A stretch of 17,074 nt of DNA from positions 1 through 17,074 of the forward strand of contig NZ_JAKEDR010000061.1 of the NCBI RefSeq assembly GCF_023653455.1. The letters are read 5' to 3'. The DNA comes from Paraclostridium ghonii (lineage in GTDB: Bacteria > Bacillota > Clostridia > Peptostreptococcales > Peptostreptococcaceae). This document shows positions 223 through 12,561 of this stretch, piece after piece. The notes under the pieces were generated by a model. It made no database searches. It was not told where the DNA came from and saw only the letters and a list, made by a program, of their open reading frames with translations. A program made the translations under genes and the position numbers. The first letter of the stretch is position 1; each line of letters begins with the position of its first letter.

Positions 223-1950
223 TTATCCTAAAAACATTTTTAAATCATCTTCAACATTTGTTATCCCACCTATACCAAAGTTTTCAACTAATACTTTAGC
301 TACATTTGGTGATAAAAATGCTGGTAGTGTTGGCCCTAAGTGTATATTTTTTACCCCTAGGTATAATAGTGATAATAATACTATTACTGCTTTTTGCTCA
401 TACCATGCTATATTAAATGCTATTGGTAATTCATTTATATCTTGTAATTCAAATACTTCTTTAAGTTTTAATGCAATAAGTGCTAATGAGTATGAGTCAT
501 TACATTGCCCTGCATCTAATACTCTAGGTATTCCGTTTATATCTCCTAGGTTTAACTTATTGTACTTATATTTTGCACATCCTGCAGTTAAAATTACTGT
601 ATCTTTTGGTAGAGCCTTCGCAAATTCTGTATAGTAATTTCTTGATTTAGCTCTTCCATCACATCCTGCCATAACGAAGAATTTCTTTATTGCTCCACTT
701 TTAACTGCTTCTACTACTGCATCTGCTAATGCAAATACTTGATTATGTGCAAATCCTCCAACTATTTCTCCTTTTTCTATTTCAGTAGGAGGTTGACAAT
801 TTTTAGCTTGTTCTATTATTTCTGAGAAATCTTTATCGTCTTCACTAATACCTTTTATATGCTTAACTCCTGCAAATCCAGCAGCTCCTGTAGTATATAT
901 TCTCTCCCTGTAACTATCTTTTGGTGGTACTATACAGTTTGTAGTCATTAATATTGGTCCATTAAAGCTTTCAAACTCTTCTTTTTGTTTCCACCAAGCA
1001 TTTCCATAGTTTCCTGCAAAGTGAGAATACTTTTTAAATGCTGGATAATAGTGAGCTGGAAGCATCTCTGAATGAGTATATACATCTACTCCAGTTCCTT
1101 CTGTTTGTTTTAATAATAGTTCTAAGTCTTTTAAATCATGTCCTGATATAAGTATTCCTGGATTATTTCTAACCCCTATATTAACCTTAGTTATTTCCGG
1201 ATGTCCATAAGTTCCTGTATTGGCACTATCAAGTAAAGCCATTCCATCTACCCCAACTTTACCAGTTTCTAAAGTTAAACCTATTAATTGGTCTATACTT
1301 AAGCTATCATCTAAAGTCTTAGCTAAAGTTGATTGCATAAAAGCATTTATTTTTTCATCATCATATCCTAATGCATTAGCATGTTTCATGTATGCTGATA
1401 AACCTTTCAAACCATATATTATTAATTCTCTTAAACTTCTTATATCTTCATCTTTAGTTTCTAAAACTCCAACTTTGGTTGATTTTTCATCTAATAATTT
1501 ATTTATATCATCAGATGTTAATTCTTGTCCACTTCCTAATATTACATCTTTGATTTTGCTTAACATACTCACCTTAATGTCCATTTCTGCATTTGAACTT
1601 GCATTCCATAAAGCTGCTTCTGGCAAGTTGTCTTTATTACTTAATTTTGATAATAACTCTTGTTTTGTTTCTAATGTTTCTTTTACTCTTGCATAAAACA
1701 CTTCATCATCAAAATTTGCATTAGTTATAGTAGTAAATAAATTTATAGTTATTAAATGATTTACATTAGCGCTTACTTTTTTACCTTCTTTTCTAAGCCT
1801 TGTTGTAATCTCTGATAATCCCTTAGTTGTATATATTAAAAGATCTTGCATTCTAGCTAAATCTGGTGATTTTCCACAAACTCCAAATTTTGTACATCCT
1901 GTACACCCTGCTGTTTCTTGACATTGAAAACAAAACATTTTATTTTCCAT
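223..1950 (-). CDS. hcp: Hybrid cluster protein (hydroxylamine/NO reductase), class I, paralogue 1
   Basis: This cytoplasmic Fe-S protein of 575 aa is complete. Family members reduce NO to N2O and/or hydroxylamine to ammonia; physiological activity is inferred. The N-terminal cubane cluster motif is C7-x2-C10-x8-C19-x5-C25, the class I spacing of strict anaerobes. All eight hybrid-cluster ligands can be placed: H271, E295, C339, C430 (the persulfide position), C458, C483, E518 and K520. Their spacing matches the Desulfovibrio protein at a near-constant offset. The ATG start follows GGAGG with a 7-nt gap. Upstream is an activator palindrome with a matching -10 box, giving a predicted leader of about 36 nt, and a terminator follows the stop. 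The unknown 213-aa gene ends just 5' of this operator with no terminator between, so some read-through is likely. It is more similar than paralogue 2 to the hcp remnant at 5177-5298. Confidence 0.96.
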
Positions 1951-1992
1951 AATAGTTCCTCCAATTTTTTTAAATGTTTATTTTATATACAC

Positions 1993-2034
1993 ATTATATA
2001 GCGTAATTTATTTTGAATCAGTAACATAGGTTAC
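1993..2034 (-). promoter_or_regulatory. HcpR-like (CRP/FNR-type) activator site plus -10 box for outer hcp
   Basis: A perfect palindrome GTAAC-ATAG-GTTAC lies at 2021-2034. On the minus strand, 22 nt later, comes TATAAT (1998-1993). With +1 near 1986 the palindrome centre falls at -41.5, the class II activator position, and no good -35 box is needed. The same geometry recurs at 2773-2814 and 3342-3383. The identity of the regulator (HcpR) is inferred from the palindrome type and the target genes; no hcpR gene is in the window. Confidence 0.78.
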
Positions 2035-2039
2035 TATTT

Positions 2040-2681
2040 TTAATTTTTATATTTTTTAATTATATAATCCTCATCATCAGTTTTTGTATATTCAAAATTA
2101 TTGTTTATAGTATTCACAAATGATGTTATCCATAAATCTCTAAGATTATAAAAAATATTAACATCTACATTCTCATTTTCCCATATTTCTTTATGCACAC
2201 ATACTCTTCTTTTCCATCTTACAACATCATCTTCTAAAGTAATTACTTCGTTTACTCTATCACATGGCATTCCATCTAGTATATAATCATTTATACTATT
2301 ATATAATTCTTTTGCATTAGTAATATTTTGTGAGAAACTTACTTCTTTACCAGCTTTTATACCTTGATTTTTATAAATATTTTCTATTTTTTTCAACGAG
2401 TCTTTATTATCTTCTAAAATTTTAGATGTCCATGCTGCCATTCTTCCTTCTGATGAATGTATTTTTTCTTGCAGCCATCCATGTATATTTCCCGTATCAA
2501 TAATATCTTCTAAATTTTTGCTTACTAATTTTTCTCCATACTTTAAATTTATTTGTTTAGTTAACTTTTCTACATCTAGTCCTTCAACCTCCGCTAACTT
2601 TATTATTTCTATTTCCAAATCTTCAAACCAAAGTATTTTATTAAATAACCAATAATGAATTTTTCCTAAAAACAAACTCAT
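2040..2681 (-). CDS. Conserved-looking protein of unknown function in the Hcp regulon
   Basis: This 213-aa protein is not recognised by family. It is probably cytoplasmic: there is no signal peptide and no clear membrane helix. The N-terminus (residues 1-30) is aromatic-rich, with H9, W11 and W18. Other candidate functional residues are the NIHGW stretch at 65-69, H75, W84, the PCDR stretch at 139-142, W156 and C161-V-H163, followed by W167. Spaced His and Cys residues would suit metal or haem binding, but that is speculation. The ATG follows AAAGGAGG with a good gap. It has its own promoter with the same palindrome/-10 layout as outer hcp and the ferredoxin operon, and its stop codon is 5 bp from the outer hcp operator. 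Its shared control and position argue that it works with Hcp in NO or hydroxylamine stress. Confidence 0.85.
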   Translation of the reverse strand: MSLFLGKIHYWLFNKILWFEDLEIEIIKLAEVEGLDVEKLTKQINLKYGEKLVSKNLEDIIDTGNIHGWLQEKIHSSEGRMAAWTSKILEDNKDSLKKIENIYKNQGIKAGKEVSFSQNITNAKELYNSINDYILDGMPCDRVNEVITLEDDVVRWKRRVCVHKEIWENENVDVNIFYNLRDLWITSFVNTINNNFEYTKTDDEDYIIKKYKN

Positions 2682-2772
2682 ATAAAACCTCCTTTATTTA
2701 TTAAAACTTCATTTTAAATAAGTATTTTAAATACACTTTTAAAATTTTATTTTTTTGCCTTTCTATATTTAG

Positions 2773-2814
2773 ATTATATAGTATTTAATTTTCATTTTCT
2801 GTAACGCTTGTTAC
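2773..2814 (-). promoter_or_regulatory. HcpR-like activator site plus -10 box for the unknown 213-aa gene
   Basis: GTAAC-GCTT-GTTAC lies at 2801-2814 (with flanks, a 16-bp TGTAAC...GTTACA palindrome). TATAAT on the minus strand occupies 2778-2773, 22 nt downstream. The predicted +1 is near 2766 with the palindrome centred at -41.5, giving an 85-nt leader. Regulator identity is inferred. Confidence 0.78.
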
Positions 2815-2840
2815 ACTATTTAATATAATTTATATTAAAT

Positions 2841-2873
2841 AAAAGGATTACCAAATAAATTGATAATCCTTTT
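2841..2873 (-). terminator. Intrinsic terminator of ferredoxin/CxxC operon
   Basis: Arms AAAAGGATTA (2841-2850) and TAATCCTTTT (2864-2873) are perfectly complementary over 10 bp around a 13-nt loop. On the minus strand the second arm ends in TTTT followed by more A/T. It starts 5 bp after the stop codon of the small CxxC gene. Confidence 0.75.
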
Positions 2874-2877
2874 GTAC

Positions 2878-3063
2878 TTATGCCTCATTTAATTCTTTTA
2901 ATATTTTTTCTAAATCTAATCCATGAATTTCACATGCTTGTTCTAATTTTTCCATTTGAGCTGAAGGGCATCCTATGCAACCCATTCCATAACTCATAAG
3001 TATTTGCGCTGCATTTGGTTTAGATTTTATTATATCTGCTATTATAGTATCCTTAGTTATCAT
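2878..3063 (-). CDS. Hybrid-cluster-protein-associated redox disulfide domain protein (DUF1858-type)
   Basis: This small soluble protein of 61 aa is a single DUF1858-like helical domain with the redox motif C29-I-G-C32 following a GMG turn. The family is named for its association with hybrid cluster (prismane) proteins and is thought to be a dithiol/disulfide redox or cluster-handling partner; its exact chemistry is not established. The ATG follows AAAGGAGAG. It starts 22 bp after the ferredoxin stop, so the two form one operon controlled by the palindrome at 3370-3383, and a terminator follows directly. A role in delivering electrons to, or repairing, Hcp is inference. Confidence 0.9.
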   Translation of the reverse strand: MITKDTIIADIIKSKPNAAQILMSYGMGCIGCPSAQMEKLEQACEIHGLDLEKILKELNEA

Positions 3064-3085
3064 ATTAATCTCTCCTTTGTGTAAA

Positions 3086-3274
3086 TTATTTTATGCTTAT
3101 AACAGAAACTGGACAACCATCTCTAGCATCCTTTGCTGAATCTAACACTTCTTCAGGTATATCTTCTTTTATAGGTACTGATATATTATCTTCATCCATA
3201 CTAAATACCTCTGGACAAGTTCCTGCACACGCTTGACATCCTATACAACCATCTCTATCTACAAATGCTTTCAT
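3086..3274 (-). CDS. Single-cluster [4Fe-4S] ferredoxin
   Basis: This 62-aa soluble electron carrier binds one cluster. C10-x2-C13-x2-C16 plus C54 (followed by Pro) provide the four ligands. C20 is an extra cysteine, as in the Desulfovibrio/Thermotoga monocluster type, but its usual disulfide partner in the middle of the chain is absent. The acidic central region (about 26-48) is typical. The ATG is preceded by AAAAGGAG. It is first in a two-gene operon with the CxxC protein and lies directly after an hcp. It is therefore a plausible electron donor to Hcp, since strict anaerobes often lack the dedicated Hcr reductase; that pairing is inference. Confidence 0.93.
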   Translation of the reverse strand: MKAFVDRDGCIGCQACAGTCPEVFSMDEDNISVPIKEDIPEEVLDSAKDARDGCPVSVISIK

Positions 3275-3341
3275 ATTTTTATCTCCTTTTATTTATATTT
3301 TAATAATAGTATTTTTAAATTTTAAATATTATATTTTATAT

Positions 3342-3383
3342 ATTATAAACTTTATCTAAATAAATTTACGTAACTCTAGTTAC
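3342..3383 (-). promoter_or_regulatory. HcpR-like activator site plus -10 box for the ferredoxin operon
   Basis: GTAAC-TCTA-GTTAC lies at 3370-3383, with TATAAT on the minus strand at 3347-3342, again exactly 22 nt after the palindrome. The predicted +1 is near 3335. The site sits 11 bp past the stop codon of inner hcp, with no terminator between, so this operon can also receive read-through from that gene. Confidence 0.78.
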
Positions 3384-3394
3384 ATTTAATTAAT

Positions 3395-5071
3395 TTATTT
3401 AGATGGAACTTCTAAGCAAGATGCTAAATCTTTATCTGGAGTACTTATAGTTTGTAAATTAAATGTGTCTACCAAATATTGAAGTACGTTAGGACTTAAA
3501 AATGCAGGTATTGATGGTCCTAAGTATATTCCTTTTATTCCTAGAGATAATAATGCTAATAAATCCGCTACTGCTTTTTGCTCATACCAAGATAAAATTA
3601 TAGATAGTGGTAAACTATTTACATCAGTGTCAAAAGCATCAGCTAATGCTAAAGCAATTCTTACAGCTGAATAAGCATCATTACATTGTCCTACATCTAA
3701 AAGTCTTGGTAATCCAGCAACTTCTCCAAAGTCTAATTTATTAAATCTATACTTACCACAAGCTAGCGTAAGTATTATGCAGTCTTTAGGTACTTTTTGA
3801 GCAAACTCTGTATAGTAATTTCTTCCAGGTCTTGCTCCATCACACCCTCCAATTAAGAAGAAATGTCTTAATTTACCTGATTTTACAGCATCAATTATAG
3901 CTGGTGCATTACTTAAAGTTGCATTGTGACCAAATCCAACTAGAATTTCGTGCGGCTCTTGGTCTTCTTTAAATCCACCTAATTCTAATGCCTTATTTAT
4001 AATTTCACTAAAATCTTTTTCTCCATCAGCGTTTTTGCCTATGTATTTTACTCCATCCCATCCAACTACACTCGTAGTAAATATTCTATCCTTATATGAA
4101 TCCCTAGGTTTCATAAGACAGTTTGTAGTCATTAAAATACAACCTGGTATATTATCAAACTCTTTTTGCTGATCTTGCCAAGCTCCACCAAAATTTCCTA
4201 CTAAATGAGGATATTTATTAAGTTCTGGGTACCCATGGCATGGTATCATTTCTCCATGAGTATAAATATTTATTCCTTTTCCTTCAGTTTGTTTTAAAAT
4301 CATTTCTAAGTCTTTTAAATCATGTCCTGAAACCACAATGAATGGACCTTTTTTAATGTGGACATTTACTTTATGAGGAGAAGGATTTTTATATACAGTT
4401 GTATTTGCTTCATCTAGTTTTTGCATAACCGCAACACTCATGTCACCAGTTCTTAGAGTCCACGTTATTAAATCATTAACAGATAGTTTGTCATCTGTTG
4501 TTGCAGCTAATGCTCTAAAGTAAAATTCGTCAACTTGATCATTAAAATATCCTAATTCTCTAGCTTGATGTCCATATGCAGATATCCCTTTTAAACCGTA
4601 TATTATGGTTTGTCTTAAACTTCTTATATCTGGATCTAAATTTTTATCATACATTATTCCTGCACGTTTAGCATCTTTTAACATTTGATCTCTAGTATCA
4701 CTTAAATTATATTCAGCTTGTTCACAGCAATTCGAACAACTTGAAACTCGACTTCTTAGACTTTGCTTTATTTCTTGTGATTGTCTAAGCATTTTTTCAT
4801 GAACATCTCCATCAAAGTTTACATTAGTAAGAGTTGTAAATAAAGAGTTTTCAACAAAACTTACAATTTCCTTATCTATCTTTTCTCCTTTGTCTATTAA
4901 CTCTTTTACATAACAACTTATTCCTTTAATTTGATATATTAACAAGTCTTGAAGAGCTGCAATTTCTGGCGTTTTACTACAAACTCCTACCTTAGTACAG
5001 CCCTTACCTCCAGCAGTCTGCTCACATTGATAGCAAAACATTGGGTATTCCATAGCCATATTGTTTTCCAT
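3395..5071 (-). CDS. hcp: Hybrid cluster protein (hydroxylamine/NO reductase), class I, paralogue 2
   Basis: This is a second complete hybrid cluster protein, 558 aa from the chosen start. An in-frame ATG at 5077 lies only 1 nt after AGGAGG, whereas the ATG at 5071 has a 7-nt gap, so 5071 is preferred. Counted from the longer form, the cubane ligands are C15, C18, C27 and C33, with class I spacing. Hybrid-cluster ligands are H252, E276, C320, C412, C440, C465, E499 and K501, so it should be active. It also has an unusual extra C114-x2-C117-C118 group that paralogue 1 lacks. It has no GTAAC palindrome upstream; instead a 17-bp inverted repeat covers its likely promoter, and an NsrR-like gene lies divergently. 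The two paralogues therefore seem to be controlled differently. No terminator is visible before the ferredoxin operon. Confidence 0.95.
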   Translation of the reverse strand: MENNMAMEYPMFCYQCEQTAGGKGCTKVGVCSKTPEIAALQDLLIYQIKGISCYVKELIDKGEKIDKEIVSFVENSLFTTLTNVNFDGDVHEKMLRQSQEIKQSLRSRVSSCSNCCEQAEYNLSDTRDQMLKDAKRAGIMYDKNLDPDIRSLRQTIIYGLKGISAYGHQARELGYFNDQVDEFYFRALAATTDDKLSVNDLITWTLRTGDMSVAVMQKLDEANTTVYKNPSPHKVNVHIKKGPFIVVSGHDLKDLEMILKQTEGKGINIYTHGEMIPCHGYPELNKYPHLVGNFGGAWQDQQKEFDNIPGCILMTTNCLMKPRDSYKDRIFTTSVVGWDGVKYIGKNADGEKDFSEIINKALELGGFKEDQEPHEILVGFGHNATLSNAPAIIDAVKSGKLRHFFLIGGCDGARPGRNYYTEFAQKVPKDCIILTLACGKYRFNKLDFGEVAGLPRLLDVGQCNDAYSAVRIALALADAFDTDVNSLPLSIILSWYEQKAVADLLALLSLGIKGIYLGPSIPAFLSPNVLQYLVDTFNLQTISTPDKDLASCLEVPSK

Positions 5072-5130
5072 AAACATTCCTCCTTTCGAAATTTCAATAA
5101 CAATTTTAGTATTTCACAAATCTTTTTAAA

Positions 5131-5168
5131 TATAGCTATATAATTAATATTTTAATTATATAGCTATA
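5131..5168 (-). promoter_or_regulatory. 17-bp perfect inverted repeat over presumed inner hcp promoter
   Basis: Arms at 5131-5147 and 5152-5168 are exact reverse complements with a 4-bp spacer. The right arm contains TATAAT on the minus strand (5160-5155), giving a +1 near 5148, inside the repeat; no good -35 box is seen. A repressor bound here would block initiation, and the divergent NsrR-like protein is the obvious candidate. It could instead be a relic terminator of the hcp remnant just upstream, but there is little GC in the stem and no proper T-run. The left arm also carries TATAAT on the plus strand. Confidence 0.55.
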
Positions 5169-5176
5169 TCATAGTT

Positions 5177-5298
5177 GAAATATTTTTAAATCATCTTAAA
5201 TATTCATTATTCAAGTTATCCAAATTTTTAACTATAACTTTTACTATATTTGCTGATAAAAACGCTAGTAGTTTTGGCTCTTAATGCATATTTTCAAC
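5177..5298 (-). pseudogene. Decayed 3' remnant of a third hcp gene
   Basis: Read on the minus strand, this stretch matches the last 40-odd codons of hcp paralogue 1 in the same frame. VENMH-stop-EPKLLAFLSANIVKV aligns with [21 protein letters not shown], followed by a weaker match to the C-terminal tail. Two codons have become stops (5281-5283 and one near 5191). At the DNA level, ATTTTTAAATCATCTT is identical in both copies, and TTTGCTGATAAAAACGCTAG aligns with TTTGGTGATAAAAATGCTGG. It resembles paralogue 1 more than the adjacent paralogue 2 (for example KV.V.N after the conserved AFLS). Upstream of 5298 no further homology was seen, so the rest of that gene has been deleted. Confidence 0.85.
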
Positions 5299-5351
5299 TT
5301 AATTTTTTTATAAAAATAATAATTAAATTAATTTAAATTTAATATTTACTA
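5299..5351. other. AT-rich spacer between hcp remnant and regulator promoter
   Basis: This is the unassigned part of the 345-bp gap between inner hcp and the divergent regulator. The rest of the gap holds the inverted repeat, the hcp remnant and the regulator's promoter. Nothing coding or structured was seen here. Confidence 0.5.
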
Positions 5352-5391
5352 TTGTGTTTAATAGTATTTAGTTACTATAATAATACTATTA
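5352..5391 (+). promoter_or_regulatory. Promoter of the NsrR-like gene with flanking inverted repeat
   Basis: TATAAT at 5376-5381 has TTGTGT 18 bp upstream (5352-5357), giving a +1 near 5388. The -10 is bracketed by 10-bp perfect arms, TAATAGTATT (5359-5368) and AATACTATTA (5382-5391). These would make a reasonable autoregulatory operator. Both arms are AT-rich, so chance is not excluded. Confidence 0.5.
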
Positions 5392-5416
5392 CATTAAGTT
5401 AAATAAGGGGTGAATT

Positions 5417-5812
5417 ATGTATCTATCAAAATTTACTGACTATAGCTTTAGAATACTTATTTATTTAGGCAACCATCCAAATGAACTGTTTACAGTAGAT
5501 GAACTATCATCTATACTTGATTTATCTACTCATCATATAAAAAAAATTGTGTATAAATTAGCAAAAAATAATTATATATTGTCCACAAAGGGACGTAATG
5601 GTGGAATAAAACTAGTTATGGATCCCAAAGATATAAACTTAGGAAAACTGCTTGATATAACAGAAGACAATTTAAATATAGTAGAGTGTTTTTCTAAAGA
5701 AAATAACGCTTGTAATCTTACAAAATGTTGCAAGCTAAAACCTATTTTAAATGAAGCTTTAATATCGTTTAAAGATAAATTAAGTGAATATACTTTACAA
5801 GATATTCTTTAA
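5417..5812 (+). CDS. nsrR: Rrf2-family regulator, NsrR-like nitric oxide sensor
   Basis: This 131-aa DNA-binding protein is the normal length for the family. The winged helix-turn-helix spans about residues 1-75, opening with FTDYSFRILIYL and including the KGRNGGIKL wing, very like E. coli NsrR. The cluster loop has C91, C99 and C105 (plus extra C104). After a short insertion these align with NsrR C91, C96 and C102, and D8, the fourth ligand in Streptomyces NsrR, is present. The end (EYTLQDIL) also matches. NsrR proteins bind a [4Fe-4S] cluster that is destroyed by NO, relieving repression. It is divergent from an hcp, the classic NsrR target. The start follows AAGGGGTG. IscR or CymR identity is less likely given the cysteine pattern. 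Confidence 0.85.
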   Translation: MYLSKFTDYSFRILIYLGNHPNELFTVDELSSILDLSTHHIKKIVYKLAKNNYILSTKGRNGGIKLVMDPKDINLGKLLDITEDNLNIVECFSKENNACNLTKCCKLKPILNEALISFKDKLSEYTLQDIL

Positions 5813-9263: not shown

Positions 9264-10919
9264 TTAAATTTGATTATTTTTTAAATCTTTTATAGATTTT
9301 AACAACATATCATACTCTTTTTCATACTCCAATTTTTTATCAGAATTAGATTCTATACATATCATGGAAATTATATGTGTTAATTTATGCTCTAAGACTA
9401 AAACTTTTTCATGCTCTATTTGTTCTTGTTTATCTACTTTTTTTATATTTATTGATTCTTCATATTGTCTTAAATTCCCGTTAAACTCTTTTATATGATT
9501 ATCTTTAATTTCAAGTATATAATCACAAGTGTTATTAATAAAAGATCTATCATGCGATACTATAATCATTGTCTTTTCTGTACTAATCAAAGATGACTCT
9601 AGTGCTTGCATTGATAAAATATCTAAATAATTTGTAGGTTCATCTAAAATTAATAAGTTATTGTCTTCTAAAATTATTTTGCATAAAGCTACTTTTACTT
9701 TTTCTCCTCCACTCAATACTCTAACATTTTTATAAACATCATCACCTTTAAATCCAAATAAATTTAAATTAATTCTTATAAAGGTTTCATTAAATGATGA
9801 TGATTCTTTTATATTATCTAATATACTTTTATCTTGATTTAAATTTTCTTGATTTTGAGCAAAGTATCCTATTTTAACTTTTGGGTGTATTTTCATAGAA
9901 TCATTATTATTTTTTAAAATCTCTTTTAACAATCTACTTTTCCCAGATCCATTTTTACCAATTAAAGCAATTTTTTTATTTCTTTTTACCTTAAAAGAAG
10001 TGTCTTTTAGTAAATTTTTATTTTTTAAGTTAAGATTTAAATCTTTTACTTCTATTAAATTTTTACTAACTATTTCCATTCCATCTTGTATGTAGATTTT
10101 TATTGGTTTTATAGTTTTAGGTTTTTCTTTTACTTCTAACTTGTCAATTCTACTTTGAATGGCTTTTATATTTCCATCTAAATTCTGTTTTCCTCTTTGA
10201 TCTCCCATTTTATGGAGTCTAGCCTCTGAGTTTCCCATTCTTTTTGGACATTTTTTTATATTATTTTTTAATTCAACCTTTTGGACCTTAATATTTTCTA
10301 GCCTATTTTTTTCAGTTTGATATTTCTCATATTCAAATTCTTTTCTTTTTATTTCTTTTGCTTTAAGATTCTCATAAGTTGTATAGTTTCCATGATATAT
10401 TTTTAAGATTCCTTCATCAATTTCAATGATAATATTACATAAAGAATTCAAAAAGGTTCTATCATGAGAAACTAATAATAGTGCACCATTGTGATTCTTT
10501 AACATTTTTTCTAAAGATTTTATGCTTTCTTGGTCTAAATTTGATGTTGGTTCATCTGCTATTATAAGCTTCTTTTTTTCTCTTAAAGCGTTTGTAATCT
10601 TTATCTTTACTTTTTCTCCACCAGATAAATAATCTTCAAACTTATCTGGTGCATTTAATAAGCTTTTTATTTTGCTATCAACACACAAATCTTTAGGATC
10701 TTCACTTTGACTTATATATGAATAGCTATTTGTTAAATATATATTTCCTTCGTCTATATCTACTTCACCTACTAAAGCCTTTATAAAAGTAGTTTTCCCA
10801 GCTCCATTAACTCCTACTAATCCAATTTTGTCTCCTTCTATTATTTCAAACTTATCAATATCTAGTATTAATCTATCTAAATAATATTTTTTCAATTTAT
10901 CTATACTTACTAACAACAA
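9264..10919 (-). CDS. ABC-F ATPase, antibiotic-resistance (ribosome protection) type
   Basis: This 551-aa soluble ATPase has two ABC domains and no membrane part. Domain 1 has Walker A GVNGAGKT (36-43), signature LSGGE (98-102), Walker B with D122-E123 and SHDR (151-154). Domain 2 has Walker A GKNGSGKS (321-328), LSGGE (402-406), D426-E427 and SHDR (455-458). The charged interdomain linker (about 185-285), with KRMGNSEARLHKMG, resembles Vga/Lsa/Msr and clostridial CplR-like proteins. Those bind the ribosome exit site and displace lincosamides, pleuromutilins, streptogramin A or macrolides. The C-terminal extension after about 490 is long. The start is TTG at 10919, 5 nt after GGAGGG; a second TTG follows directly. 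The leader upstream looks like an attenuator. The actual drug spectrum is unknown. Confidence 0.9.
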   Translation of the reverse strand: MLLVSIDKLKKYYLDRLILDIDKFEIIEGDKIGLVGVNGAGKTTFIKALVGEVDIDEGNIYLTNSYSYISQSEDPKDLCVDSKIKSLLNAPDKFEDYLSGGEKVKIKITNALREKKKLIIADEPTSNLDQESIKSLEKMLKNHNGALLLVSHDRTFLNSLCNIIIEIDEGILKIYHGNYTTYENLKAKEIKRKEFEYEKYQTEKNRLENIKVQKVELKNNIKKCPKRMGNSEARLHKMGDQRGKQNLDGNIKAIQSRIDKLEVKEKPKTIKPIKIYIQDGMEIVSKNLIEVKDLNLNLKNKNLLKDTSFKVKRNKKIALIGKNGSGKSRLLKEILKNNNDSMKIHPKVKIGYFAQNQENLNQDKSILDNIKESSSFNETFIRINLNLFGFKGDDVYKNVRVLSGGEKVKVALCKIILEDNNLLILDEPTNYLDILSMQALESSLISTEKTMIIVSHDRSFINNTCDYILEIKDNHIKEFNGNLRQYEESINIKKVDKQEQIEHEKVLVLEHKLTHIISMICIESNSDKKLEYEKEYDMLLKSIKDLKNNQI

Positions 10920-10924
10920 AAAAT

Positions 10925-11010
10925 CCCTCCTTATTTACACTTAAATATAAGGAGAGATTATTATTTATGGGTACAAAAATAAAAGTAGATAATATAATTT
11001 ACTCTCCTTA
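10925..11010 (-). promoter_or_regulatory. Candidate ribosome-stalling attenuator of the ABC-F gene
   Basis: On the minus strand three arms compete. Arm 1 TAAGGAGAG (11010-11002) is perfectly complementary to arm 2 CTCTCCTTA (10956-10948). Arm 2 also pairs with arm 3 TAAGGAGGG (10933-10925), which is the ribosome binding site of the ABC-F gene, with one G-U pair. The 2:3 hairpin extends with TTTA/TAAA to a 4-nt loop and would hide that site. A ribosome stalled near the end of the leader ORF, whose stop is 4 nt from arm 2, would mask arm 2 and free the site. There is no T-run, so control would be translational. Confidence 0.65.
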
Positions 11011-11023
11011 ATTTAAGCATCAT
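10961..11023 (-). CDS. Putative 20-aa leader peptide of the ABC-F gene
   Basis: Tandem ATG codons at 11023 and 11020 open a frame of 20 codons (MMLKLRRVNY followed by IIYFYFCTHK), ending TAA at 10963-10961. It spans arm 1 and stops just before arm 2 of the attenuator. Short leader ORFs are the norm before inducible ABC-F and erm genes. Against it, no good ribosome binding site precedes the ATGs; AAGGAGAG (arm 1) lies inside the frame and would better serve a non-standard ATT start 8 nt later in the same frame. Confidence 0.45.
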   Translation of the reverse strand: MMLKLRRVNYIIYFYFCTHK

Positions 11024-11188
11024 AAATACAACTACAAAAGTAGCTTTTTAAAAATTTATAATACTTTAAATTTGAAAAATAAATTATAGCTTCATTTTCT
11101 TTTATTCCGTTCCCTTTCTTTTATATTTTTAATGAAAGTTTACCATACTTATTATATATTATCAATTATAATTTTATTTATAATAAAA
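11024..11188. other. AT-rich gap upstream of the ABC-F leader
   Basis: This gap must hold the promoter for the ABC-F transcript. Candidate minus-strand -10 boxes are TATAAT near 11088-11083 and TATAAA near 11060-11055, but neither has a convincing -35. No gene was seen. Confidence 0.4.
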
Positions 11189-11220
11189 TTAACCCTACGT
11201 CATTTTTGATGTAGGGTTAA
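11189..11220 (-). terminator. Intrinsic terminator of the permease operon
   Basis: Arms TTAACCCTAC (11189-11198) and GTAGGGTTAA (11211-11220) form a GC-containing 10-bp stem, followed on the minus strand by AATTTTATT. It lies 12 bp after the permease stop codon. Confidence 0.85.
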
Positions 11221-11232
11221 TATATAAAAAAA

Positions 11233-12561
11233 TTAATCTCTTATAATTGCTTTATCTCCATTTGCTTTTTTAGAATATACTTTAGTCATATAAAAATATA
11301 TTGGTACTACTACTATCATACCTCCAAGACCCCAAACTATTTTCATAGGTGAGTCAATTGCAGCTTTTACTAATAGTATTAAACTTACTATGACTGCAAA
11401 TATTGGAACAACTGCTCCTCCTGGTATCTTAAAGTTTATTTCTTTACCTGAATATTTTTTTCTAAATATTAAAACAGCTAAACAAGTAGGTATATACTGA
11501 ATAAATCTAGATACAACACTAATTTGAGATAATGTTGTAAATGATCCTGACCAAGCTATTATTAAAGTTCCTATAACAGATACTATAATTGCTATATATG
11601 GAGCTTCATTTTTATTAGTTTTTCCCATAGATTTAGGCATTAACCCTTGTTCTACTAAAGCTTTAGCTGATCTTGGTGTAAATATAGATGAAGCAATATT
11701 TATACCCCCAACAGATATTATAGTTCCAATTGTTATTATATAACCACCTACAGGTCCCATAATTTTAGTTGCAGCATCAGCAACTGGATTAGCTGCTCCT
11801 CTTAACCCTTCTCCTAAAACACCTATACTTATAGCTAATACAAGTACATATACAACAGATACAACAAACATTACCATAACTAATGCCTTTGGTACATTTT
11901 TCTTAGGATCTTCCATTTCTTTTGCTGCAACAGCTAAAGATTCAAATCCTGTAAATGCATAGAATAATAATATACTTACAGCTACGAATGCTGATGAAGT
12001 CGTTTGCCCTTCAGGTATTATTAAAAATGGTTTAAAGTTTGATCCTTTTATAAAGAATATACCTACAGCTATAAATAATATCAATGGAACTAATTTTCCT
12101 ACAGTCATTATGTTATTTAATTTTCTAGATTGTTTCATTCCCATTAAGTTTATAGATCCAAGCCCTATTACTAAAACTCCAATTATTATATTTTTAGTTA
12201 ATGGATCTGCTGCTTTAGGCCATACAGAAGATAATGTAACTGCAAAGAAGTTTGCCATAGTAGCCCATGCAATCATACTTACTATCCATTTCATAAACCC
12301 AACTTCAAATCCAATAAATTCACCAAATGCTTCTTTAGCATAAAGATATGGTCCTCCATCTTCATCAAACCAGCTTCCTGCCTCAGCAAAACATAAAGCA
12401 ATAGATACTGCTAAAACCATACAAAATCCTAAAATTAATATACTTGCTGGACCTATATTTGAGTAAGCTTCACCTGGAAGACCAAATATACCAGAACCTA
12501 TAATTGCATTAATACCTAATAATACAATACTCCAAAACCCTAACTTAATTCCTTTTTCCAC
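11233..12561 (-). CDS. APC-family amino acid permease
   Basis: This 442-aa integral inner-membrane transporter has about 12 hydrophobic helices. The APC hallmark GSGIFGLPG lies in the first helix (about 22-30). Helix 6 has FYAFTGFESLAVAAKEMEDP, and the end is short and basic. The family moves amino acids, polyamines or their derivatives by proton symport or exchange. The start is GTG, with GGGAGG 7 nt upstream. It begins 39 bp after the stop of the C26 hydrolase gene and shares the sigma-54 promoter upstream of that gene. The likely substrate is a gamma-glutamyl compound or the amine that the hydrolase releases; this is inferred from the pairing. Confidence 0.93.
   Translation of the reverse strand: MEKGIKLGFWSIVLLGINAIIGSGIFGLPGEAYSNIGPASILILGFCMVLAVSIALCFAEAGSWFDEDGGPYLYAKEAFGEFIGFEVGFMKWIVSMIAWATMANFFAVTLSSVWPKAADPLTKNIIIGVLVIGLGSINLMGMKQSRKLNNIMTVGKLVPLILFIAVGIFFIKGSNFKPFLIIPEGQTTSSAFVAVSILLFYAFTGFESLAVAAKEMEDPKKNVPKALVMVMFVVSVVYVLVLAISIGVLGEGLRGAANPVADAATKIMGPVGGYIITIGTIISVGGINIASSIFTPRSAKALVEQGLMPKSMGKTNKNEAPYIAIIVSVIGTLIIAWSGSFTTLSQISVVSRFIQYIPTCLAVLIFRKKYSGKEINFKIPGGAVVPIFAVIVSLILLVKAAIDSPMKIVWGLGGMIVVVPIYFYMTKVYSKKANGDKAIIRD

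Follow-up and report, generated by a model that had tools for sequence, protein, structure and literature searches.

The window analyzed here, a 17,074-nt contig of Paraclostridium ghonii, carries one short palindrome three times in front of minus-strand genes, which raises the question of which protein reads these sites and for what purpose. The palindrome GTAAC-N4-GTTAC lies at 2021-2034, 2801-2814 and 3370-3383, perfect in each case. On the minus strand every copy is followed by exactly 22 nt and then by TATAAT, the −10 box of outer hcp (1993-1998), u213 (2773-2778) and fdx (3342-3347), respectively. Positions and spacing are those given in an initial annotation of the sequence, and its statement that the window holds no further perfect copy was borne out as well. 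In 200 dinucleotide shuffles, perfect palindromes appeared with a mean of 0.01 and a maximum of 1, compared to the 3 present. Mismatched copies in the window are without signal, with 8 palindromes at up to two mismatches and 5.5 expected, and an Rfam scan of the window yielded no match at gathering score. An extra TATAAT on the plus strand, 28 nt from the palindrome at 2021-2034, points into the 3′ end of u213 and is probably there by chance.

The minus-strand order is inner hcp, palindrome, ferredoxin, DUF1858, hairpin, palindrome, u213, palindrome and outer hcp, so that each of the three modules heads one unit, namely fdx-DUF1858, u213 and outer hcp. Outer hcp (223-1950) encodes a hybrid cluster protein of 575 amino acids (PF03063, 5.4e-184; NF003658 and TIGR01703 above cut-off), and inner hcp (3395-5077) a protein of 560 amino acids with the same domain (PF03063). 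Both belong to the Prismane family and exceed the hydroxylamine-reductase/hybrid-cluster cut-offs. The gene fdx (3086-3274) specifies a single-cluster 4Fe-4S ferredoxin of 62 amino acids (PF13370, 1.5e-14), and the following gene (2878-3063) a hybrid-cluster-protein-associated redox disulfide protein of the DUF1858 type (61 amino acids; PF08984, 2.7e-23; TIGR03980 above cut-off). The product of u213 (2040-2681), 213 amino acids long, belongs to an unnamed family, neither Pfam nor NCBIfam giving a match at E ≤ 0.01. A terminator-like hairpin on the minus strand (2841-2873) lies between DUF1858 and the u213 promoter; it was the one such site found in 1900-5500, where 0.6 are expected, and is therefore listed as a consensus match only. 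No module at up to three mismatches was found upstream of inner hcp in this genome. An 18-nt perfect inverted repeat with a 4-nt loop is present there (5130-5169), and was dropped as a candidate operator because its second arm is lost in the sister genome.

The palindrome equals the published HcpR2 motif GTAACnnnnGTTAC. According to the accessible text of Rodionov 2005 (PMC1274295), this motif was derived from the hcp upstream regions of HcpR2 genomes and is tied to a proline at position 181 in the recognition helix of the regulator. In P. ghonii the operator GTAACnnnnGTTAC stands upstream of hcp, and the genome encodes a CRP/FNR-family HcpR with a helix of the Arg180-Pro181 type. The Crp-type helix-turn-helix domain gave 10 matches in the genome, 3 of them over the cut-off. 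The HcpR gene, which the initial annotation had proposed to look for, was found on contig C322; its product has 214 amino acids, both CRP domains and the helix GVPRPSLSREF, and its assignment to HcpR2 is based on similarity together with this helix signature. The Arg-Pro helix recurs in all 30 HcpR loci taken as the best matches of the family search. That the regulator is not present in the window itself thus held true for HcpR, but the claim overlooked an Rrf2/NsrR-like gene at 5417-5812. On C322, hcpR is unlinked to the cluster, and its 3.2-kb locus contains no perfect palindrome; in other genomes hcpR lies close to genes of the regulon, as in two Terrisporobacter records, where it is next to u213. 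We consider it highly probable, at roughly 0.92, that HcpR activates all three units from class II promoters as part of a regulon for nitrosative stress.

A different CRP/FNR protein might read the palindromes in place of HcpR, above all the one encoded on contig C312, which also has both CRP domains. Its recognition helix, however, is of the S-R-E (CRP/FNR) type, tied to other motifs in the accessible text of PMC1274295, and the Arg-Pro helix belongs to the C322 protein and not to this one. We regard such a reader as very improbable.

Assignment of the sites to HcpR as a class II activator also draws on their position. Taking the first base of TATAAT as −12, i.e., with a predicted start 7 nt past the hexamer, the palindrome covers −48 to −35 and the 22-nt spacing places its centre at −41.5, the value of about −41.5 given in the initial annotation. 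Class II CRP/FNR activators bind with their centre at −41.5, a position typical of activators. To see how far this geometry extends, we searched 71 genomes of the family, that of P. ghonii included, for the palindrome and TATAAT with the gap left free from 12 to 32 nt (21 spacings). This search returned 114 matches in 45 genomes, compared to 8 for a reversed-pattern control in the same 71 genomes. The gap was exactly 22 nt in 72 of the 114, 23 nt in 12 and 21 nt in 4, while the other 26 were scattered over 13 values, a number that exceeds the control's 8 in all. With the genome of the window left out, 22 nt still accounted for 69/110. Random occurrence without a fixed spacing was thus not what the scan revealed.

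In the profile of 69 distinct 22-nt modules, C-n-G-A-w-w and not TTGACA occupies the hexamer position 17 nt upstream of TATAAT. With their centre near −41.5 of the predicted start and no −35 consensus, the modules correspond to class II CRP/FNR-type promoters. Apart from the bases that the search itself required, the second base after the palindrome is G in 48/69 and the adjacent one A in 47/69. The GA pair occupies these two positions in 38/69 and its mirror image occupies the far side in 7/69, so that good HcpR sites look asymmetric; the corresponding figures for modules at other spacings are 9/28 and 10/28, and we treat the asymmetry as suggestive only.

Presence of the module follows presence of HcpR. 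A homolog at E ≤ 1e-40, a cut-off chosen after the list was seen, occurs in 39/71 genomes, and a module spaced by 21-23 nt in 41/71. The module is found in 37 of the 39 genomes with HcpR and in 4 of the 32 others (Fisher test, 2.8e-13, which is not a probability of independent events as the genomes are related). The exceptions are G018 and G060, which have HcpR and lack the module, and G001, G002, G024 and G068, where the module is present and HcpR weaker or missing. Together with the published motif, the HcpR2-type gene, the 22-nt preference and the mostly redox-type targets described below, this co-occurrence favours the HcpR and class II reading that had been proposed for the three sites.

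The Rrf2/NsrR-like gene (5417-5812, plus strand) is divergent from inner hcp and encodes 131 amino acids with a C-x7-C-x5-C pattern (PF02082, 4.1e-31; TIGR00738 above cut-off), which we take to be the cysteine pattern of NsrR. The protein passes the Rrf2 superfamily cut-off and reaches 95.4 bits with the NsrR equivalog NF008240, whose cut-off is 182, and is therefore filed as Rrf2/NsrR-like only. Conceivably, this protein represses the three promoters and the palindromes are its operators. Its gene adjoins the cluster, the three cysteines are NsrR-like, relatives adjoin HcpR modules in G027, G053 and, in broken form, G049, and an nsrR-type gene lies near u213 in 5/79 named loci (from the best 80 of at least 545 relatives). 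Strong relatives (E ≤ 1e-49), however, occur in only 19/71 genomes as opposed to 41/71 for the 21-23 nt module, and 18/20 nsrR loci are without a perfect palindrome, some of these loci ending at contig ends and one (L193) holding a relative of only 30%. The gene is moreover preceded by another inverted repeat, TAATAGTATT-N13-AATACTATTA at 5359-5391, perfect here, largely kept in the sister genome and a candidate operator, and −41.5 is a position typical of activators. Repression through the palindromes is thus slightly less probable still than a reading by the C312 protein. The Rrf2/NsrR-like protein may add a second nitric oxide input to the same cluster. In G049, the nsrR-like gene is in two pieces (C5:733077-733468), beside an HcpR module at 733593-733634.

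The history of the cluster can be followed in a sister genome of the same genus (G027, locus L090). There the palindromes of outer hcp and u213 are kept with one change each in the N4 spacer, and the fdx module is imperfect, with a half-site change (GTACC..GTTAC) and TATAGT as −10 box; the fdx module has accordingly been newly perfected in P. ghonii or is decaying in the sister. The same cluster in L090 includes a third hcp, open at 9669-11306 between inner hcp and nsrR, with a frame of 545 amino acids, 89% identity to outer hcp and its own HcpR module. The window retains about 120 nt of this gene, a decayed 3′ end on the minus strand (5178-5294; 79% identity to the 3′ end of outer hcp over 119 columns, E 2e-24) with stops in all three minus-strand frames. 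Similarity between outer hcp and the third hcp of the sister extends through the promoter, and some modules have therefore arisen by duplication. That the three modules are chance repeats, or one promoter duplicated without function, is nevertheless scarcely credible, as each has its own N4 spacer, 22-nt spacer and flanks, the 71 genomes as a set favour this spacing, and none of the 200 shuffles contained three perfect copies.

The initial annotation had called the regulon local, which proved too narrow, since two or more further units outside the window have the palindrome or a close variant of it. The assembly (3.53 Mb, 374 contigs) contains 6 perfect palindromes, 3 of them in the window, 1 intergenic on contig C65 and 2 within coding sequences, the latter without TATAAT at 22-nt spacing. 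Weaker sites are less telling: palindromes with up to one mismatch number 126 compared to 96 for the reversed control, which puts single mismatched palindromes close to background, and whole modules with up to two mismatches number 10 compared to 8 for the reversed pattern, so that weak sites cannot be trusted. The C65 palindrome precedes what we take, by eye, to be a second DUF1858 gene, with a −10 box of TATAGT at 20 nt or TAGTAT at 22 nt. A near copy on C357 (one mismatch, 22-nt spacing) precedes a gene that we likewise take to encode a siroheme reductase-like protein, a relative of which (L079) contains PF01077 and PF03460. For the second DUF1858 gene (L002, 5001), the −10 box appears to be TATAGT at 20 nt and not at 22 nt, and in two more species of this genus (L153, L154) a DUF1858 gene that is not part of the cluster has the palindrome with TATAAT at 20 nt. 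Two further Prismane-family frames, on C201 (21037-22722, 670 amino acids) and C14 (4418-6097, 641 amino acids), are perhaps carbon monoxide dehydrogenases; neither contig carries any of the six perfect palindromes.

For a survey of target genes, module surroundings and the window were rescanned, allowing 10-32 nt between palindrome and −10 box and collapsing 60-nt contexts that were identical, and the longest open reading frame starting within 300 nt was taken as the target of each of the resulting 113 modules. The 69 modules at 22 nt precede hcp in 28 cases, the u213 family in 14, siroheme nitrite/sulfite reductase-like genes in 7, an 81-aa CxxC protein in 7, ferredoxin-like genes in 3, cupins in 3, nitroreductase-like genes in 2, a hemerythrin in 1 and the fdx of the window in 1; one of the remainder faces an unassigned frame and two face none. 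The nitroreductase-like (252 aa) and ferredoxin-like (242 aa) labels are presumptive, assigned by eye. At spacings other than 21-23 nt, 22/28 modules have an unassigned target or no open reading frame. Counting as known only the genes of the window and hcpR, known targets follow 53/85 modules at 21-23 nt and 6/28 at the other spacings (Fisher test, 2e-4). The 81-aa CxxC protein follows its seven modules at exactly 22 nt throughout (L088, L089, L092, L094, L115, L124 and L148); the copy in L088 has no Pfam match, and the protein is possibly another undescribed member of the regulon.

The u213 family is the second commonest target, and relatives occur in 46/71 genomes of the family. In 30 of these loci, including one whose upstream DNA spans just 26 nt, a perfect palindrome lies within 400 bp upstream in 20/30 and one with up to one mismatch in 25/30, compared to 0/3000 and 26/3000 in shuffled upstream DNA. 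A wider set, which overlaps the first in some species, comprised the best 80 named loci of at least 545 confirmed relatives, 79 of them with enough upstream DNA. Here the corresponding numbers are 50/79 and 61/79, against 1/3950 and 36/3950 for shuffles; a site with one mismatch precedes the u213 relative of Clostridium beijerinckii HUN142 (L228). The 22-nt spacing is among the best-scoring −10 positions in 45/61 named loci, a figure without control. The 18 misses are 3 of Intestinibacter type, 2 of 3 Cetobacterium loci, Clostridium sp. CL-2, Inconstantimicrobium and 11 relatives of at most 48% identity. In the flanks of the 79 loci, which extend up to 3 kb, we found DUF1858 genes near 36, hcp near 13, hcpR-type genes near 8 and siroheme reductase-like genes near 8, besides the five nsrR-type genes mentioned above. 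The u213 protein, widespread and so far without a description, now appears to be a standard component of nitric oxide defence.

Homology searches with two u213 queries returned 1836 (clustered) and 780 relatives in overlapping sets. Among the matches listed (120 per query), the relatives are named 'hypothetical' or 'uncharacterized', and the closest, from a Paraclostridium sp. assembly, is 91% identical. The predicted fold of u213 weakly resembles H-NOX, V4R and TRAPP domains; the model of a divergent u213 relative (m4437b0ea2eb6) has a pLDDT of 92.2. H-NOX, V4R (as in MopR, PoxR and DmpR) and TRAPP domains share one superfamily. An assignment of u213 as H-NOX was rejected, with an hhalign probability of 0.9% against 14 H-NOX domains from the fetched genomes; u213 differs from H-NOX in having no HNOB profile match at E ≤ 1 and no conserved histidine in helix 93-117. 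V4R matches were found in 4/118 genomes, two of them standalone proteins, a number too small to build a profile from, and the u213 profile retrieved nothing at E ≤ 1 among sequences of solved structures. We tentatively suggest, as one possibility that is more doubtful than probable, that u213 represents an undescribed HcpR-activated clostridial nitrosative-stress family, in which a small ligand-binding domain of the H-NOX/V4R/TRAPP class without the H-NOX heme histidine has a conserved Cys/His site (C140, C161, H163) whose ligand is a metal, an NO-derived species or a cofactor, and so supports Hcp. Among the titles and abstract openings listed, none points to published work on relatives of u213 or on a constant spacing of HcpR sites, and the exact motif string turned up in one of the papers searched; u213 may be listed under a locus name in supplementary tables or RegPrecise, which lay outside that search.

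In the proposed mechanism, HcpR would sense NO, by analogy to Porphyromonas through heme, and would then bind GTAAC-N4-GTTAC. Centred at −41.5, it would cover the −35 region, recruit RNA polymerase to TATAAT and switch on hcp, the genes for ferredoxin and the DUF1858 redox protein, and u213. The role of Hcp is NO reduction, for which the ferredoxin would supply the electrons. For P. ghonii, the sequence shows the sites, their conserved spacing, a regulator gene with the matching recognition helix and the kind of genes targeted, whereas binding by HcpR, activation, the response to NO and the transcription starts are inferred.

Among known systems, the HcpR2 regulon shares with this cluster the consensus GTAACnnnnGTTAC, the proline of the recognition helix and clostridial targets of the hcp and ferredoxin type, according to its accessible text (PMC1274295). 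The main text of that paper contains neither '41.5' nor 'transcription start', and, supplementary site tables aside, its accessible text names no protein recognizable as u213. In Clostridioides difficile, NO induces hcp and frdX about 200-fold, and this induction requires hcpR, as described in the accessible part of PMC12915319. Common to both systems are a CRP/FNR activator and an hcp plus a ferredoxin-like gene, with NO induction presumed for P. ghonii; the difference is that hcpR sits with its targets in C. difficile, whereas here it lies apart from them and u213 joins the targets. As a different motif is predicted for C. difficile HcpR (PMC1274295, accessible text), those data are no direct test of the present one. 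The heme-dependent HcpR of Porphyromonas gingivalis (PMC12750200, accessible part) is likewise an NO-responsive CRP/FNR activator of hcp, as the C322 protein would be, and its motif differs from GTAACnnnnGTTAC in the accessible text of PMC1274295. Among solved structures, the C322 protein matches PDB 9day best (E 2.8e-14), named only 'Transcriptional regulator, putative', which we believe to be P. gingivalis HcpR; if so, the position of the heme-linked Met68 appears, by manual count, to be Arg in P. ghonii, and the sensing chemistry may differ.

As motif and regulator were already known, the regulon as such is expected and of a known kind; new is u213 as a member, an undescribed core protein. 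The family-wide promoter grammar of palindrome, 22 nt and TATAAT allows regulon members to be predicted from sequence alone. It strongly links the unnamed u213 family, for which one search returned 1,836 clustered relatives, to clostridial NO defence, a link that makes the function of u213 directly testable.
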